DNA from: an uncultured Bacteroidia bacterium
Lineage (GTDB): Bacteria; Bacteroidota; Bacteroidia; Bacteroidales; UBA932
Reading direction: 5' to 3'
DNA: 64,000 bases
Assembly: GCA_902785825.1 (NCBI GenBank)
Contig: CACZZZ010000006.1
Span: 1 to 64,000 of the forward strand
The notes under the pieces were generated by a model. It searched no databases. It saw only the letters and a list, made by a program, of their open reading frames with translations, and was not told the DNA's origin. A program made the translations under genes and the position numbers. Shown piece by piece: positions 1,237 to 46,598 of the stretch (position 1 is the first letter of the stretch; every line of letters begins with the position of its first letter).

Positions 1237-4236
1237 ATGACTATACACAACAATACACACAAAGTAATGAAAAGGATTATGACTGCCGTGGCGGTGATGC
1301 TGCTATGCCTCACCGGCACAACCGTATTCGCCCAGGGCGGATACCAGGTCAAGGGAGTCGTGGTCGATGCCTTGGGACCGGTCATCGGAGCCACTGTCAT
1401 GGAGCAGGGCACGACGAACGGAACCTCCACAGGTCTCGACGGTGACTTCCTCCTGAATGTCAGTGGTCCGGACGCTACAGTTGTCATCAGCTGCATCGGC
1501 TACGCTACCCAGACATTCAAGGCTTCAGAGGTCCCTGCCAAGGTCACCCTCGCTGAGGATGGAGAATTCCTCGACGAGGTCGTGGTCATCGGTTACGGTA
1601 CCGTGAAAAAGAGTGACATGACCGGATCGGTCTCGACCGTGAAGGCTGATGAGATCAACAAGGGTGTCATCACGACCCCGGCCGACCTCCTTAGAGGTAA
1701 GAGCGCGGGTGTCGTCGTGACTCAGGGCAGCGGTATGCCTGGTGCGGGTGCCACTATCCGTATCCGTGGTGGCTCCTCCATCAACGCTTCCAACGACCCT
1801 CTGATCGTCATCGACGGCCTGCCCGTCTCCAATGACCGGATCGAGGGTATGTCCGACCCTCTGTCTTCCATCAACCCCGAGGACATTGAGAGCTTCTCTG
1901 TCCTGAAGGACGCGTCCGCGACCGCCATCTACGGATCCAGGGCCTCCAACGGAGTTATCGTGATTACCACGAAGAAGGGTTCAAAGACCGCTTCCAAACT
2001 GCCCAATGTGGCCGTGGATTTCACGACTTCCATCAACACGATCGCCAAGTACAACGATCTTCTTGACGCTGACGGGATCCGTTCCCTCATCAGGGATTTC
2101 TATGGTCCTAACTCGGCCGCCGAGGCCGCTCTCGGCTCAGCCAACACTGACTGGCAGAAAGAAATCTACCACAACGCCCAGACCTACGACGGCAACATCA
2201 GCCTGAACGGCAAGATCGGAACCTTCCTTCCTTACCGCGTCTCCGGTGGCTATACGAGCCAAAACGGTACCCTCAAGGGATCCAAGATGGATCGTGGGAC
2301 TCTGTCTCTCAACCTTTCTCCTACTTTCTTCGAGAACCACCTCACTGTCAACTTGAACGGAAAGGGAACATACGCCAAGAACGTCTATGCCAACCAGGAG
2401 GCTATCGGTGCGGCCAATCACTATGACCCCACCAAGCCGGTTTATGACAGCAACGGTCTTAACGGATACACCACCTGGTACGATGCGGCCGGTAACGTCA
2501 ACACTATGGCGACGATGAACCCTGTGGGCCTGCTGGACGCCTTGATTGACAAGGCAGACTCCAAGCGCTTCATCGGCAACGCCCAGTTCGACTACAAGAT
2601 CCATGGCTTCGAGGATTTGAGGCTCAACCTTAACCTTGGTATTGACTGGGCCTCCTCAGATGGAATAACTGAGAGGGCCAAGGGCTCTGAGAGGTCTATC
2701 CATGACACTTCTGAGGCCGGCGGTGGTCATCATGTGGATTATGACTACACCCGTCGCAACACCACCCTTGAGTTCTACGCCGACTACAACAAGACCTTCG
2801 CGAAGAAGCACAATGTGGATTTGATGGCCGGTTATTCCTGGCAGCATTTCTGGAGCAACAAACATAGCTACAAGTACAGGCTGGCTGACAATCTCGAGAT
2901 GGCCAATACCGAAGGCAAGGGTGAGCTCTACCTGATTTCCTTCTTCGGCCGCGCAAATTACGGTTTCGCCGACAGGTATCTGTTGACCGCCACTCTCCGA
3001 GCTGACGGAACCTCACGTTTCCAGAACCACAAATGGGGTATATTCCCGTCCGTGGCCTTCGCTTGGAATATCAAAAACGAGCCTTTCATGAAGGGCGTTG
3101 AGAAACTTTCGACCGCTAAGCTTCGTCTTAGCTGGGGTGAGACTGGCCAGCAGGAGGTTGGAGGCTACTACGACACCTTCGCCCAGTTCCTCTCCATCAA
3201 CACACCCGGCTCCTACTATTTCGTGAACGGCAGTAACTATTCCGCTCCTATCGTCGCCCTCGGTTACAGCGCCGATCTCAGGTGGGAGACCACCACGACT
3301 TACAACGCCGGTATCGATCTTGGTTTCTGGAATGACCGTCTGCGCCTGAGCGCCGATGTGTATCAGAGGGACACCCGCGACATCCTCAACTGGATACCTG
3401 TGCCTGGCCTCTCCAACCTGACGAACTATCTCAATACCAACATCGGAACTATGACCAACAAGGGATTCGAGATTGATCTGAACGGTATCCTCATCGAGAC
3501 CAAGGACATGAGCTGGACAGCCGGAGTGAACATGGCTTACAATAATAACAAGGTCACCAAACTGACGGCTTCCGACGAGAATGCCGCTGGTATAGAGAAA
3601 GGTGGAATAGCCGGAGGTACCGGTAACAACGTCCAGTTGATCCAGGTTGGTTACCCGATGCTCTCTTACTATCTCTACCAGCAGGTTTATGACTCCGAGG
3701 GCAACCCTATCAACGGAGTATATGTGGACCGCAACAACGACGGCCAGATCACCGCTGATGACAAGTATCTGACCCACAAGCCGGATGCTGACTACACCTT
3801 CGGTTTCAACACCAATTTCACTTGGAAGAACTGGACCGCGGCCCTCTCTGGCCACGCCTCCATCGGTAACTGGGTGTACAACAACGTCGCTTCTGACACG
3901 GAGATGCTGGCCGACCTCTGGACCAACCAGTTTGTCAGCAACAGGGTCTCCTCGGCTCCCAAGTCGATGTTTACCCAGGCCCAGTATCTGTCTGACTACT
4001 ATCTCCATGACGCTTCCTTCCTGAAGCTTGACAACTTCACACTCGGATACACCTTCCCGAAACTGTTCAAGATCAATGCTGACAGGAACGCGTCCCTCAA
4101 TATCTTTGGAACCGTGCAGAACATCTGCACCTTCACGAAGTACTCCGGCATCGACCCTGAGGTTTACGGCGGAATTGACGGAACCGTCTATCCCCGTCCG
4201 AGAACCTATGTCTGCGGTTTGAAACTCAACTTCTAA
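1237..4236 (+). CDS. susC: SusC-like TonB-dependent outer-membrane receptor
   Basis: Outer-membrane beta-barrel that imports starch oligosaccharides with SusD as its lid, powered by TonB. The 999-residue length is normal for the family. Order of parts: signal peptide ending near VFAQ, a carboxypeptidase-regulatory-like domain (about residues 35-110), the SusC box around DEVVVIGYGTVKKSDMTGSV, plug domain, then the barrel ending in an aromatic residue (KLNF). A second start at 1267 (MKRIMTAVAV) gives a more typical signal peptide and may be the real one. It lies between the truncated MFS gene and susD in a co-directional cluster with two GH13 enzymes, which makes starch or a related alpha-glucan the likely substrate. 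Specificity is inferred from these neighbours. Confidence 0.95.
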   Translation: MTIHNNTHKVMKRIMTAVAVMLLCLTGTTVFAQGGYQVKGVVVDALGPVIGATVMEQGTTNGTSTGLDGDFLLNVSGPDATVVISCIGYATQTFKASEVPAKVTLAEDGEFLDEVVVIGYGTVKKSDMTGSVSTVKADEINKGVITTPADLLRGKSAGVVVTQGSGMPGAGATIRIRGGSSINASNDPLIVIDGLPVSNDRIEGMSDPLSSINPEDIESFSVLKDASATAIYGSRASNGVIVITTKKGSKTASKLPNVAVDFTTSINTIAKYNDLLDADGIRSLIRDFYGPNSAAEAALGSANTDWQKEIYHNAQTYDGNISLNGKIGTFLPYRVSGGYTSQNGTLKGSKMDRGTLSLNLSPTFFENHLTVNLNGKGTYAKNVYANQEAIGAANHYDPTKPVYDSNGLNGYTTWYDAAGNVNTMATMNPVGLLDALIDKADSKRFIGNAQFDYKIHGFEDLRLNLNLGIDWASSDGITERAKGSERSIHDTSEAGGGHHVDYDYTRRNTTLEFYADYNKTFAKKHNVDLMAGYSWQHFWSNKHSYKYRLADNLEMANTEGKGELYLISFFGRANYGFADRYLLTATLRADGTSRFQNHKWGIFPSVAFAWNIKNEPFMKGVEKLSTAKLRLSWGETGQQEVGGYYDTFAQFLSINTPGSYYFVNGSNYSAPIVALGYSADLRWETTTTYNAGIDLGFWNDRLRLSADVYQRDTRDILNWIPVPGLSNLTNYLNTNIGTMTNKGFEIDLNGILIETKDMSWTAGVNMAYNNNKVTKLTASDENAAGIEKGGIAGGTGNNVQLIQVGYPMLSYYLYQQVYDSEGNPINGVYVDRNNDGQITADDKYLTHKPDADYTFGFNTNFTWKNWTAALSGHASIGNWVYNNVASDTEMLADLWTNQFVSNRVSSAPKSMFTQAQYLSDYYLHDASFLKLDNFTLGYTFPKLFKINADRNASLNIFGTVQNICTFTKYSGIDPEVYGGIDGTVYPRPRTYVCGLKLNF

Positions 4237-11606: not shown

Positions 11607-14600
11607 ATGAAAAGAATAGTATTGTTATTGGCGATTGTCGCGGCAGCGGTGGCGTGCGGTGATAAGAGCAAGAAGGCCACGGTCGAGGCAGGTGACTGGA
11701 CCGAGGATGCCGTCATCTATGAGCTGAACATCCGTCAAGCCACAGCGGAAGGTACCCTAAAGGCCGCGGAGGCTAAACTGCCTGAGCTGAAGGAACTTGG
11801 CGCTGATGTCGTGTGGCTTATGCCGCTATATCCGATCGGTGTCGAGGGCCGTAAAGGCACTCTCGGCTCATATTACGCAATCAAGGACTACTGCGACGTG
11901 AACCCGGAATTCGGAACGCTGGCGGACTTTGATCATTTTTTGGAAGCCGCACATAACCAAGGACTTAAGGTTATTATCGACTGGGTCGCCAACCACACAT
12001 CTCCGGACCATCCCTGGGTCACCGGAAAGGATCCTTCATGGTACGTTCGTGATGCCGAAGGGAAAACTATCGTGGAATACGACTGGACCGATATCGCCAA
12101 ACTCAACTACGCCAATAAGGACATGCGCTCCGAGATGGAAAAAAGCATGCGATTCTGGCTTGACCGTGGGATCGACGGATTTCGCTGCGATGTTGCCTTC
12201 CAGGTGCCTCAGGACTTCTGGGCTGACGTCTTCACCAAGTTCAGGAATGAATATTCCAGGAGACTGTTCTTCCTTGCGGAAGGAGAGGAGGCCTGGCTTC
12301 ATGAGGCCGGGTTTGACTGCACCTACGCCTGGAAGCTGCACCATCTGCTGAACGACATCGCCCAGGGCAAGGCTAATGCCGACAGCCTTGTGAAATATGT
12401 CGAGTGGAACGCCCAGGAGTATGGGGTCGCTGAGCGGAGTCGAAGCGCCCACCGCCTGATGTTCATCACAAACCATGATGAGAATTCCTGGAACGGGACT
12501 GAGTTCGAGAGGATGGGAGACGCTTGGAAGTCGATGGCGGTCCTGTGCTGGACCCTGCCAAATGCCCAGCCGCTGATCTACACCGGTCAGGAAGTTGGTT
12601 ATAATCACCGCTTTGAGTTCTTCGAGAAGGACCCGATGCCGGACTGGCACCACAACGCCGCTACTGATTTCTATGCGGGTTTGAACGCCCTGAGGCATGC
12701 TCATCCGGCTCTATGGAGCGACAATTCGGAATTCCAGGTCCTTGCGGCGACCGATTCCAGCATTTGCTTCAAGAGGACTGCGGAAGGAGATGAGGTGACT
12801 GTCAATGTGCTTCTGAAGGCTCCTTGGACCTGGTCTGTCGAGACTGCGGACTCAAAGGTGGCAAGGGTTGAGCCTCCGTGCTGGTGGACCGGGATGAAGA
12901 CCGACCTGCAGCTTATGATTTATGGAAAAGACATCTCCCAGTGGGACGTCTCTATCGCCGGGAACGGATTGAAAGTCACTGATATTCATAAAGCCGACAG
13001 CCCGAATTATCTTTTTGTGGATGTGGCGGTTAGCCCTTCAGCGAAGCCTGGGACTTACGACCTTGTGTTCACAAAGGGCGACGAGTCTTTCAAAAAGCCC
13101 TATGTCATTGGTGAGAGGGAGCCTGGTTCCGCCGAAAGGACGAGTTTCACGACCTCCGACTTCATTTATCTTATCAATCCGGATCGTTTCGCCAATGCCG
13201 ATCCCGGAAATGACAACACTGACGACACCTTTGAGATCGCCAACCGTAAGGAGCCTTTCGGTCGCCATGGCGGTGACCTTCAGGGAATTATCGACCATCT
13301 TGATTATATCGCCGACCTCGGGGCCACAGCCATTTGGTGCACCCCGCTCCTTATGGACAACCAGCACTGGGAGTCCTACCACGGCTACGCTTGCGGAGAC
13401 TACTATCGCATTGATCCCCGTTTCGGCAGCAACGCCCAGTACAAGGAATATGTCGCCAAAGCCCACGAGAAGGGGCTGAAGGTCATTATGGACATCGTCA
13501 CCAACCACTGCGGCACAGACCACTGGTGGATGAGTGACCTTCCTTTCAAGGACTGGGTCCACCAGTTCCCTGAATATACCAACACGAACTACATATTCCC
13601 GTCGGCAATGGATCCGAACGCCTCGGAGTACGACAGGAATCTTCTCGTGAGCGGATGGTTCGTCCCTATGATGCCAGATATGAATCTGGATAATCCCTTC
13701 ATGCTGAAATACTTCCAGCAGTGGGCGATCTGGTGGACGGAGTATTCCGGCCAGGACGGTCTCCGAGTGGACACATATCCCTACAACGAGAAAGTCCCGA
13801 TGAGCAAATGGTGCGAGGCCGTTTTAAATGAATATCCGAACCTGAATATCGTAGGGGAGTGCTGGGACTCCAACTTCGACCAACTGGCCTACTGGCAGGG
13901 CGGCAACGCCAATGCTGACGGCTTCGATTCCCACCTTCCTTCCATCATGGATTTCCCTCTCCAGGAGGCCATCAACGCTGCTTTGGCAGAGGTGGATCCT
14001 GGCTGGAACCAGGGAATGTTCAGGGTTTATCACGCGCTTGCCCATGATGCCACTTACCACGATCTCTCCAAGATGATGATATTCCTTTCCAACCACGATC
14101 ATTACCGTATTGCCGATGCTTGGAAACTGGATCCTGACAAGATGAAGATCGGCTACACCCTTCTGGCGACGGTCAGGGGCATTCCGCAGCTGTTCTATGG
14201 CGATGAGATGATGTTCGCCACAGGGAAGAACTACAAGAGCGACGGCGAGTTACGCATGGACTTCCCGGGCGGCTGGGCTGGAGATCAGGTCAATTTGTTC
14301 TCCGCTGAAGGTAGAACCGGGGTTGAGGCTGAGCTTCACGATTATGTCAAGACGCTCTTCCAGTGGCGTAAGGGTAAGGATGTGATCCATAACGGCAAGA
14401 CCGTACACTTCATGTCGAGGGACAACACTTACGCCTTCTTCAGGTACAACGACACAGACAAAGTGTTTGTCTATATCAACAACTCTCCTGAGGAGAAGAC
14501 CATTCCTTGGTCGCATTACGCTGAGATCGCCTCTGGCCTCGGCGCCGGAACCAATGTCCTCACCGGCGAGAAGGTCACCATCACCGACAAGACGATTGTC

Positions 14601-14633
14601 CCTCCCTGCACCGCCCTGGTCGTCGAATACTGA
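11607..14633 (+). CDS. Double-GH13 lipoprotein: alpha-amylase fused to a neopullulanase/cyclomaltodextrinase-like enzyme
   Basis: A single 1008-residue chain with a lipoprotein signal (MKRIVLLLAI..., lipobox AVAC) and two complete GH13 barrels. Module 1 (about 30-415) has nucleophile D195 (GFRCDVA), acid/base E225 (LAEGE) and D291 (TNHDEN). Module 2 starts with a cyclomaltodextrinase N-terminal beta domain (about 418-505), then a barrel with D722 (GLRVDT), E751 (VGECW) and D831 (SNHDHY), ending in a C-terminal beta domain. Module 2 resembles SusA-type neopullulanases. The chain likely acts in the periplasm on imported maltodextrins. Residues 275-281 (AERSRSA) are encoded by a copy of a dispersed DNA motif and look like an insertion just before the conserved FITNHDENSW. 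Both modules appear catalytically competent. Confidence 0.9.
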   Translation: MKRIVLLLAIVAAAVACGDKSKKATVEAGDWTEDAVIYELNIRQATAEGTLKAAEAKLPELKELGADVVWLMPLYPIGVEGRKGTLGSYYAIKDYCDVNPEFGTLADFDHFLEAAHNQGLKVIIDWVANHTSPDHPWVTGKDPSWYVRDAEGKTIVEYDWTDIAKLNYANKDMRSEMEKSMRFWLDRGIDGFRCDVAFQVPQDFWADVFTKFRNEYSRRLFFLAEGEEAWLHEAGFDCTYAWKLHHLLNDIAQGKANADSLVKYVEWNAQEYGVAERSRSAHRLMFITNHDENSWNGTEFERMGDAWKSMAVLCWTLPNAQPLIYTGQEVGYNHRFEFFEKDPMPDWHHNAATDFYAGLNALRHAHPALWSDNSEFQVLAATDSSICFKRTAEGDEVTVNVLLKAPWTWSVETADSKVARVEPPCWWTGMKTDLQLMIYGKDISQWDVSIAGNGLKVTDIHKADSPNYLFVDVAVSPSAKPGTYDLVFTKGDESFKKPYVIGEREPGSAERTSFTTSDFIYLINPDRFANADPGNDNTDDTFEIANRKEPFGRHGGDLQGIIDHLDYIADLGATAIWCTPLLMDNQHWESYHGYACGDYYRIDPRFGSNAQYKEYVAKAHEKGLKVIMDIVTNHCGTDHWWMSDLPFKDWVHQFPEYTNTNYIFPSAMDPNASEYDRNLLVSGWFVPMMPDMNLDNPFMLKYFQQWAIWWTEYSGQDGLRVDTYPYNEKVPMSKWCEAVLNEYPNLNIVGECWDSNFDQLAYWQGGNANADGFDSHLPSIMDFPLQEAINAALAEVDPGWNQGMFRVYHALAHDATYHDLSKMMIFLSNHDHYRIADAWKLDPDKMKIGYTLLATVRGIPQLFYGDEMMFATGKNYKSDGELRMDFPGGWAGDQVNLFSAEGRTGVEAELHDYVKTLFQWRKGKDVIHNGKTVHFMSRDNTYAFFRYNDTDKVFVYINNSPEEKTIPWSHYAEIASGLGAGTNVLTGEKVTITDKTIVPPCTALVVEY
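12428..12448 (+). repeat. Dispersed CTGAGCGnAG-type motif inside a coding region
   Basis: CGCTGAGCGGAGTCGAAGCG matches the dispersed intergenic motif seen at 25923, 36785 and 45405. Here it is in frame within the double-GH13 gene and adds the peptide AERSRSA. Confidence 0.6.
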
Positions 14634-17579: not shown

Positions 17580-17598
17580 GTTTTTCCAAATTAATGCC

Positions 17599-17606
17599 TA
17601 TATTTG
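17599..17606 (+). promoter_or_regulatory. -7 promoter box TATATTTG
   Basis: Consensus -7 box 28 bp before the ATG at 17635. It would drive the unknown gene and possibly the structured segment and reverse transcriptase behind it. Confidence 0.6.
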
Positions 17607-17634
17607 GGAAACACTTGATACACAATTTTATACC

Positions 17635-18177
17635 ATGGGACTATTCAAAGATCTTCTTAAAGGTGTCGCAGGTGACCTTGTAGCCAAGGTCCAGCAGGCA
17701 GCCACAGCGGCCATGTCCAATGCCTCCACTCCTGAGCAACCTCATTCCGGCGGAAGGGGATCGTCATTCACCGCTCCTTCCGGAAACGCTCCAGCGAGGA
17801 GCGAGGCCGAGAGTGTGAGCTACTTCTCCGGAATCCTGGCCTCACGTTTCCCTCAGTACACAGTCCGGCGTAATGTGCCGGTCACTGAGCTTGCAGGGAA
17901 CGCCACGGATTCTTTCCAGCTCTACTCGACCCGTCCCACTCAGGCTTATAAGGCGGAATGGGGAGAGCCTTACACCTTCGTCCTTTCCGAGGGCGGAGTT
18001 CCGAAAGGGATTGTCATGCTTGGCTCCGGACATAGCCATGACGCTAAAGTGAAGTACTTGATCTCCAGGATGTACGCCAAGAAGCTCGGGCTTCCGTACA
18101 TCAATTTCTACACGCAGATGCCCAACGAGGAAGAGTACGTCGTCGGCCGCATCGGCAAGTTCATGGGGAACATCTGA
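17635..18177 (+). CDS. Unknown protein, possible degenerate nuclease-like fold
   Basis: 180 residues. The N-terminus (MGLFKDLLKGVAGDLVAKVQQA) looks like an amphipathic helix, followed by a Ser/Gly/Pro-rich linker (about 35-62) and a compact domain (about 65-180). The last part (YTFVLSEGGVPKGIVML, GSGHSHDAKVKYLISRMYAKKLGLPYI split by me) has the strand-strand-helix order of DUF2726/PD-(D/E)XK-like domains (beta hairpin, then His/Lys helix, then GLPYI strand). The usual acidic catalytic residues are not evident. It precedes the reverse transcriptase with only a structured 150-bp gap between, so the two may work together. I do not recognise a defined family. Confidence 0.65.
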   Translation: MGLFKDLLKGVAGDLVAKVQQAATAAMSNASTPEQPHSGGRGSSFTAPSGNAPARSEAESVSYFSGILASRFPQYTVRRNVPVTELAGNATDSFQLYSTRPTQAYKAEWGEPYTFVLSEGGVPKGIVMLGSGHSHDAKVKYLISRMYAKKLGLPYINFYTQMPNEEEYVVGRIGKFMGNI

Positions 18178-18181
18178 TCTT

Positions 18182-18320
18182 GGGAAGAGGGGATGCGGCT
18201 TGGAGCCGCACCCGTGGAGGATCCAGCATCGCCCATTTTGAGGCGGCATTACGGGTTGCCGGGCGTTGTACGGTCTCGTGATCAGCAATTTTGCTGATTC
18301 AAAATCATCCCCCTTTTCCC
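18182..18320 (+). ncRNA. Structured leader before the reverse transcriptase (candidate RNA)
   Basis: GGGAAGAGGGGATG (18182-18195) can pair with CATCCCCCTTTTCCC (18306-18320), closing a ~110-nt interior. Inside are a perfect 7-bp hairpin TGCGGCT-TGG-AGCCGCA (18194-18210), a CGGCA/TGCCG hairpin around 18244-18262, and an ATCAGCAA/TTGCTGAT hairpin (18281-18298). The outer stem shares its 18194-18195 bases with the first hairpin, so these are partly alternative. A flanked RNA next to an RT recalls retron and DRT ncRNAs, but no known class was matched. Confidence 0.45.
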
Positions 18321-18329
18321 TTTTATCGG

Positions 18330-19532
18330 ATGGAAAGCATTATGAGACAGATCATGAGTCAGGGAGTCTGGGACGACTTCCTGGCTCATCGTCTGCGTAA
18401 GGGACGCTTCACCTGGCATTCTTTCGAGGAAGCGGACGACTTCGTGGACTCGGAGTCGTATCTGCCGGTAGTCTCACGCCTTTCTGTCGGGGAGGAACTT
18501 GGAATTCCATTCAAGACCGTCATCAACAAGATGGGGACAGGGAAAAAGAGGGTTGTCTATCATTTCGGCGATCCCGAGATGACAGTCCTCAAACTCATCT
18601 CCCACCTCCTTTACCGCTACGACGGTCTTTTCGCCTCAAATTGCTATGCTTTCCGTAGGGGGAAGAGAGCCTCTGACGCCATATTCAAGTTGAAAAGGGA
18701 AATGAAGGACAGGAAGTTGTGGGCATATAAGGTGGACATCCACGACTATTTCAACTCAATATCCATCCCCGTCCTTCTTCCCATCCTTTCCGGAATATTC
18801 AAGGATGACCCCCAACTGTATTCTTTTTTTGAGAGACTTCTCTCGGATGACAGGGTTATGTCGGGTGGCCAGGTGATCCGGGAGCGGAGAGGAGTGATGG
18901 CCGGAACCCCTACGGCACCATTCCTCGCTAATGTCTATCTGATGGAGGTGGACCATCATTTCGAGAAGGAAGGAGTCGTCTATGCCAGATATTCGGACGA
19001 CATACTGATACTCTCTGATTCTGAAGAAGAACTGGCGGCAAGAAAGGACGAGCTGTCGGACTTTTTCAAGAAATATTATCTCACGGTCAACCCGGCGAAA
19101 GAACATGTTTACGCCCCAGGGGAAGCTATTGATTTTCTGGGCTTTAGCCTTGACGGATCCAGAATTGATGTCTCGAAGGCGACCTTGATGAAGATGAAGG
19201 GCAAGATCCGCCGCAAGGCCCGTTCCCTCCACAGGTGGGTTTCCAAGACGGGCAAAGATCCGGTCCTGGCTATGAAGGCTCTGATCAATACTTTCAACCG
19301 GAAGTTCTTTGAGGAGGGAGACCCCGACACGCTCTCATGGTCGAGATGGTTTTTCCCGGTGATCAACTCGGCGGAAGGCCTCAGAGAAATAGACCATTAT
19401 CTTCAGGACAACATTCGTTTCCTATCGACCGGGAAGCATAACAAAGCCAACTACCGGGCCAGTTACGAGGATCTCAAGTCTCTCGGCTACCGTAGCCTTG
19501 TCCATGAATATCACAAGTTTCGTCAAAAATAG
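18330..19532 (+). CDS. Stand-alone reverse transcriptase
   Basis: A 400-residue RNA-directed DNA polymerase without maturase or endonuclease domains. The fingers/palm carry D136 (WAYKVDIHDYF), GTPTAP at 192-197, the catalytic YSDD box at 221-224 (YARYSDDILIL), VNPAKEHV at 253-260 and FLGFSL at 269-274. A helical C-terminal region (about 285-400) includes GKIRRKARSLHRW, FNRKFF, RWFFPVIN and a conserved-looking GYRSLVHEYHKF end. It lacks the VTG element of retron RTs, so it is not a standard retron; it looks like a gut Firmicutes/Bacteroidota 'unknown group' RT. The start at 18330 was picked because upstream in-frame codons run through the leader hairpin; 18342 is possible. Defence, or RNA-templated synthesis from the leader, is conjecture. 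Confidence 0.88.
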   Translation: MESIMRQIMSQGVWDDFLAHRLRKGRFTWHSFEEADDFVDSESYLPVVSRLSVGEELGIPFKTVINKMGTGKKRVVYHFGDPEMTVLKLISHLLYRYDGLFASNCYAFRRGKRASDAIFKLKREMKDRKLWAYKVDIHDYFNSISIPVLLPILSGIFKDDPQLYSFFERLLSDDRVMSGGQVIRERRGVMAGTPTAPFLANVYLMEVDHHFEKEGVVYARYSDDILILSDSEEELAARKDELSDFFKKYYLTVNPAKEHVYAPGEAIDFLGFSLDGSRIDVSKATLMKMKGKIRRKARSLHRWVSKTGKDPVLAMKALINTFNRKFFEEGDPDTLSWSRWFFPVINSAEGLREIDHYLQDNIRFLSTGKHNKANYRASYEDLKSLGYRSLVHEYHKFRQK

Positions 19533-46285: not shown

Positions 46286-46598
46286 TATCTTTGCGCTTGC
46301 ATCAAGAGCGCTCCTATGAGGAGCCGCCAACCGAGCAGCCAGAAGCCACGGTGGCAAAGCGATGCGGATTGTTCAACATCAAAAAAAGTATGGTACCATG
46401 GAAAAGCATCGCTTGTACAGGGCAATAGTTGCCTTGGGCTTTCGGGCAAGGTCTAATTATAGGGTGGGGACCATGCCCGGGGAGGTGGGCTTTGAGGGCA
46501 TTCTGAGGCCGAATATGTGGGCAAGGTCGAGGGCATCAAGTTAGACCTTGCCCGGCCGGTATGGAAAACAAAAGCACCGGAAAATCCGGTGCTTTTTT
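46286..46598 (+). ncRNA. Candidate independent structured non-coding RNA
   Basis: Promoter box TATCTTTG (46286-46293). Helix GCATC (46299-46303)/GATGC (46361-46365) closes a region with CTCCT-ATG-AGGAG (46311-46323) and GCCAC-GGTGGC (46346-46355). AAGCGATGC (46357-46365) can instead pair with GCATCGCTT (46406-46414). Next are a GGCAA-TAG-TTGCC hairpin (46421-46433) and a perfect 13-bp inverted repeat (46444-46456/46541-46553), then the terminator at 46571-46597. The first 70 nt carry ATCAAGAG, CCAACC and GGTGGCAAA in SAM-I-like order, without the full consensus. No convincing protein gene lies inside; short frames only. Confidence 0.5.
46571..46597. terminator. Bidirectional hairpin terminator
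   Basis: AAAGCACCGG and CCGGTGCTTT form a perfect stem with T runs on both strands. It ends tRNA-Val transcription (minus) and the candidate RNA (plus). Confidence 0.85.

Follow-up and report, generated by a model that had tools for sequence, protein, structure and literature searches.

The defence systems DRT2, DRT9 and DRT10 join a reverse transcriptase (RT) with a cis-encoded non-coding RNA (ncRNA) in antiphage defence (PMC12596737; PMC12483538; PMC12632851), and for UG RTs of this kind a link to the origin of telomerase has been drawn (PMC12632851). These three systems are the closest working analogues of a cassette of about 1.97 kb that we describe here from an uncultured Bacteroidia bacterium (Bacteroidales; UBA932; assembly GCA_902785825.1), a rumen-type Bacteroidales genome. 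The window analysed comprises positions 1 to 64,000 of the forward strand of contig CACZZZ010000006.1. The cassette lies on the plus strand, with approximate limits at 17580 and 19552, flanked by genes for a DUF486 protein and a HAD hydrolase, and consists of a promoter element, a gene for a partner protein, a structured RNA and an RT, in that order. The RT belongs to group UG26 and the RNA to the Rfam family RT-5 (RF03026), each of which had already been catalogued separately. What appears to be new is the joined system, the extended and pseudoknotted form of the RNA, and a nuclease-fold partner that in one bacterium is fused to a TIR domain. A unit of RT, RNA and partner had been proposed in a preliminary description of this stretch, made from its letters alone, and that observation is confirmed. 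The cassette is probably an uncharacterised relative of immune systems that make DNA from RNA against viruses.

The cassette resembles each of the three described systems in part. Like DRT10, which combines a UG17 RT, an ncRNA and a SLATT protein (PMC12632851), it has three components, with an RT in the range of about 400–460 amino acids and an ncRNA of similar size that carries several stem-loops with poorly conserved loops. Unlike DRT10, its RT falls in UG26 (the UG17 model matches only partially, at 102.8 bits against 519 bits for UG26), its RNA lies between the partner and the RT rather than before the partner, its partner lacks a SLATT match and has a predicted PD-(D/E)XK-like alpha/beta fold, and the A-B-A′ pattern of the DRT10 RNA is not supported. 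With DRT9, built from a UG28 RT and an ncRNA (PMC12483538), it shares the RT fold and a core of RT and upstream ncRNA; however, the Drt9 model yields only a partial match of 101.7 bits, and an alignment of 76 RNAs shows no universally conserved unpaired poly-U tract in the loops. As in DRT2 (PMC12596737), a compact stem-loop ncRNA with a short pseudoknot stands beside the RT, but the RNA is roughly half the length of the DRT2 RNA and the Drt2 equivalog model scores 58.2 bits against a cut-off of 390. The Drt3a model also scored far under its cut-off. The preliminary description had held that neither retrons nor systems of the DRT2/DRT9 type are matched; the exclusions stand, although the RT and the leader were less novel than this implied, being present in existing catalogues under the names given above.

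The RT gene (18330–19532, plus strand) encodes 400 amino acids from an ATG at 18330 to a stop ending at 19532; an alternative TTG start at 18291 would fall within the RNA. The match to the PADLOC-DB model RT_UG26 is full-length (E = 1.5e-156, positions 16–412), the next model reaching 111 bits. No tested difference separates the protein from this catalogue entry, which itself gives no RNA, partner or function. As the preliminary description had stated, the enzyme is a stand-alone RT with D136 and a YSDD motif (Y221 to D224), in which RVT_1 is the sole Pfam match. D136, D223 and D224 are invariant among 60 homologues, as is the C-terminal Y379, which by analogy is a candidate priming residue. 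An AlphaFold2 model (pLDDT 92.3) has the group II intron RT GsI-IIC as its nearest fold, followed by DRT9, G2L4 and DRT2. In a tree whose comparison set held generic RTs, CRISPR RTs and one UG17 sequence rather than all UG groups, 18 UG26 sequences from two phyla formed one group with 100/100 support. No other RT was found in the source genome, and UG26 cassettes occur in single copy per genome.

The structured RNA occupies positions 18182–18320 of the plus strand, between the partner gene and the RT gene. Rfam RT-5 matches 18206–18311 over its entire length (model positions 1–104 of 104; 75.8 bits against a gathering threshold of 45.7; E = 4.3e-13), whereas the conserved unit is longer than the Rfam model, being closed by a helix, P0, that lies outside it. 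The complementary arms of P0, GGGAAGAGGGGA at 18182–18193 and CCCCCUUUUCCC at 18309–18320, enclose the elements SL1, P1/P2 and SL3, and the leader of about 140 nt with complementary arms and hairpins noted in the preliminary description is thereby borne out. SL1 (18195–18209), defined from the covariation alignment, is followed by the 5′ strand of a pseudoknot, ACCCGU (18210–18215), which pairs with ACGGGU at 18251–18256. The P1/P2 arm (18219–18276) contains P1a, P1b (18227–18234 with 18261–18268) and P2 (18245–18248 with 18257–18260), and between P1 and P2 lies an unpaired, hypervariable bulge of near-maximal entropy, AUUUUGAGGC (18235–18244), which is 10 nt long here and usually about 7 nt in homologues. 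SL3 (18282–18298) is separated from the 3′ arm of P0 by an unpaired junction, J3 (18299–18308), with a conserved 5′ half and a hypervariable 3′ half.

This architecture is carried by covariation among 26 homologues. Standard pairs fill 89.3% of pair cells, compared with 72.1% in shuffles and 43–50% in slid controls; changes on both sides of a pair occur in 218 cells against 66.6 in shuffles, and 38 of the 47 pairs show them, including nine of 12 in P0, five of six in the pseudoknot and all seven in SL3. Compensatory change is very strong between Bacteroidales and Clostridia, closing helix and pseudoknot included. The pseudoknot is paired in every sequence (26/26), appears elsewhere as GCCUGC/GCAGGC, and was recovered without prior input as the top non-nested signal of mutual information, which also pointed to two further Watson-Crick covarying contacts (columns 49–206 and 59–96 of alignment A3). 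Neither the pseudoknot nor these contacts are shown in the Rfam alignment line. Single-sequence folding energy is modest (z = -1.97). Two kinds of local variation were observed. In loci L032, L048 and L075 the bulge region carries hairpin-like insertions of about 15–75 nt, which would lengthen or displace the template if the bulge serves as one. In three Clostridia loci (L065, L067 and L064) terminator-like hairpins with T-runs stand between RNA and RT, and more RNA than RT may be produced there.

The RNA is closely tied to UG26. A search model, R1, in which RT-5 was extended by the outer arms, detected the RNA next to UG26 in every locus of the first set whose upstream DNA was long enough. 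It did the same in 14 of 15 further Clostridia loci (all but L224), whereas 38 loci with other RTs yielded no match. RT-5 and UG26 also occur in the identical seven of 200 genomes of the family. A conserved, cis-encoded structured RNA accompanying the RT, the feature that marks ncRNA-templated (Class 2) UG/DRT systems, is therefore present here, as the preliminary description had anticipated for homologues of this RT. In one locus, L030, the partner gene (228–797) and the RNA (796–944) still adjoin each other, while the RT begins only at 3998, and about 3 kb with two open reading frames (ORFs) lies between RNA and RT.

The partner protein (17635–18177, plus strand; 180 amino acids) comprises an N-terminal helix and a PD-(D/E)XK/Vsr-like core at about residues 56–180. 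On the predicted structure, the core resembles Vsr/DUF559-like, VRR_NUC PD-(D/E)XK and RAP domains over about 90 residues, with Z scores of up to 9.1 (3hrl) and 8.8 (I-Bth0305I). Foldseek was weak by itself (E = 0.04), Pfam gave no match, and a PDB sequence search with the partner profile returned no credible match. Unlike Vsr/DUF559-like and VRR_NUC domains, the partner does not conserve the catalytic acidic positions: a conserved catalytic D and E-x-K were not found in its homologues, the acidic position of beta-2 being T, S, V or I, and that of beta-3 being M in 27 and E in 14 of 54 sequences, without E-x-K. The protein is thus predicted to have a PD-(D/E)XK nuclease fold without a conserved catalytic set; the nuclease-like pattern reported in the preliminary description is reflected in the fold, but “nuclease” itself was too strong a word.

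An iterated profile detected the partner ahead of the RNA in most Clostridia loci and in every Bacteroidota locus for which enough upstream DNA was available. It was present in six of seven UG26 genomes and in none of 193 others in the first sample (Fisher, 8e-11), the seventh UG26 genome (G099, locus L002) carrying a remote homologue, and in nine of 15 UG26 genomes and none of 280 others in the second (Fisher, 1e-13). The co-occurrence suspected in the preliminary description is thus seen in both samples, all 15 partner-bearing genomes carrying UG26. Since ten Clostridia genomes with UG26 and the RNA gave no partner match, the RT and RNA look like the core of the system and the partner like a frequent third part. 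The partner domain also occurs in larger proteins. In the Clostridia locus L060, on a contig shared with L234, it forms the C-terminus of an 876-amino-acid protein with an N-terminal cysteine motif, a TIR domain (Pfam, E = 3.7e-11) and TPRs, whose ORF ends 217 nt before the RT. It follows zinc ribbons in L073, and cysteine motifs resembling zinc ribbons in L065, L002, L037 and L074. The TIR fusion offers a concrete hint of how a signal in the form of complementary DNA (cDNA) might be turned into a response at the level of the cell.

The cassette is accessory. In a genome of the same genus (G232) the MFS, DUF486, HAD and EamA genes are contiguous, and this empty site identifies the 1.97-kb unit as an insertion; a second congeneric genome (G216) carries the cassette in the identical position, with an RT that is 81% identical. 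The genes that neighbour the cassette differ between genomes, UG26 is sparsely distributed (7/200 genomes of the family; 15/295 in the second sample), and the cassette moves as one unit across bacterial phyla. A Bacteroidetes-type -7 promoter element, TATATTTG (17599–17606, plus strand), stands 36 nt before the ATG of the partner and is aligned in G216. Of 30 Bacteroidota loci, 22 have the form TAnnTTTG at 29–47 nt upstream of the partner ATG, where 2.3 would be expected, and no element of this type directly precedes the RNA in any of 32 Bacteroidota loci, so that a single promoter ahead of all three parts, as first proposed, fits. The corresponding test in Clostridia was weak overall (12 of 40 loci against 5.8 in shuffled sequence) and clear, by eye, only in loci that lack the partner. 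Five such loci (L055, L050, L064, L056 and L070) have sigma-70-like promoters just upstream of the RNA, for example TTGACA-17-TAGAAT in L055; these stop a few bases short of P0, suggesting that the RNA starts there.

The explanation that we regard as best, and hold with somewhat better than even confidence as a whole, is a horizontally acquired RT-ncRNA system for antiphage defence. Partner, ncRNA and RT would be transcribed as an operon from a single promoter. The UG26 RT would bind the RT-5 RNA as its dedicated partner in a ribonucleoprotein, with the RNA as a scaffold closed by P0 and braced by the pseudoknot. A single-stranded variable segment of the RNA may then template a short or repetitive cDNA, as in DRT2, DRT9 and DRT10; the P1/P2 bulge and the 3′ half of J3, both unpaired and hypervariable, are candidates for this segment. 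The partner probably binds nucleic acid, either the cDNA or the ribonucleoprotein in a state altered by phage, and would pass the signal on; elsewhere this domain stands together with a TIR domain (one Clostridia genome) or with zinc ribbons (others). By analogy, the system likely serves to defend the cell against phages, perhaps abortively. What the analysis itself establishes is the association of RT and RNA, the structure of the RNA, the predicted fold of the partner, its co-occurrence with UG26 and the insertion; the ribonucleoprotein, the template, priming, the cDNA and the defence role are inferred. We consider it a tentative proposition, with the odds somewhat against it, that UG26 represents a new DRT type in which RT-5 serves as scaffold and also as the template of a defined cDNA, perhaps one of tandem repeats, and in which this cDNA is read by a catalytically dead protein of nuclease fold, which in some bacteria fires a TIR effector.

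Several results weigh against this explanation. A DRT10-like A-B-A′ repeat was supported neither in the bulge (p = 0.11–0.28 against within-loop shuffles) nor in J3 (p = 0.22–0.50 against cross-sequence permutation), in tests that have low power on such short loops; repeats of this kind catch the eye in individual RNAs (GACAGACA, AUUCUAU) but are not enriched overall. UG26 appears to stand next to the Class 2 UG groups, a placement made by hidden Markov model scores alone. The surroundings of the cassettes are not defence islands, with just four strong PADLOC matches among 109 neighbouring ORFs; phage and plasmid records held no relative at E = 1e-20, and viral contigs only distant RTs. The ten Clostridia genomes mentioned above showed no partner match anywhere, in a search that lacked a positive control of its own.

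Other explanations account for parts of the same evidence. RT-5 might be a cis-acting leader, either an attenuator or a protein-binding site, that controls expression of the RT instead of serving as scaffold or template. Its position immediately ahead of the RT in almost every locus and the T-run hairpins of the three Clostridia loci would suit such a role, but in the partner-less loci L055, L050 and L064 the RNA has a promoter of its own, in L030 it is far removed from the RT, and a closed domain with a pseudoknot, inherited together with a UG RT, is more in keeping with a DRT ncRNA; we regard a leader as unlikely. A retron-like scheme, in which the P0 arms play the role of a1/a2 and an RNA primer starts the copying of part of the RNA into multicopy single-stranded DNA, would explain an RNA with complementary end arms upstream of the RT. 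The retron models, however, reach 53.8 bits against a cut-off of 235, the VTG motif is absent from the translation, and the common form of the RNA has no long msd-like hairpin, which leaves this scheme decidedly unlikely. That the cassette is a self-mobile retroelement, copying itself through its RT, is suggested by its varied neighbours and the empty site, yet the junctions, inspected by eye, show no target duplication, the partner bears no signature of integrase or endonuclease activity, and each genome has one copy; such an origin seems very improbable. That the RT is the degenerate ORF of a group II intron and the leader unrelated to it, as the GsI-IIC fold and a weak TIGR04416 match might suggest, is scarcely credible given 120.3 bits against a cut-off of 300, no maturase domain match, no Rfam intron RNA and the separate, fully supported clade of the RT, the placement outside group II introns on which the preliminary description had made its proposal depend.

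Two features elsewhere in the window were noted in passing. A SAM-I/IV riboswitch aptamer (58 bits) is found at 46294–46396 on the plus strand, near a tRNA-Val gene of the opposite strand, and an ORF at 11607–14633 (plus strand) encodes a protein of 1008 amino acids whose sequence reads like a tandem pair of alpha-amylase-type catalytic domains.

In the literature we found no paper that mentions RT-5 or RF03026, hence none that links it to UG26, and no experimental study of UG26 function; two surveys that may state the link (10.1093/nar/gkx699; 10.1093/nar/gkac467) lay outside that search. The RT group and the RNA motif, each a catalogued orphan, come together in the cassette as one testable system, which also includes a partner protein that has no name in the libraries searched. 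The system further bears on whether the UG RTs related to DRT2, DRT9 and DRT10 generally use an ncRNA as template.
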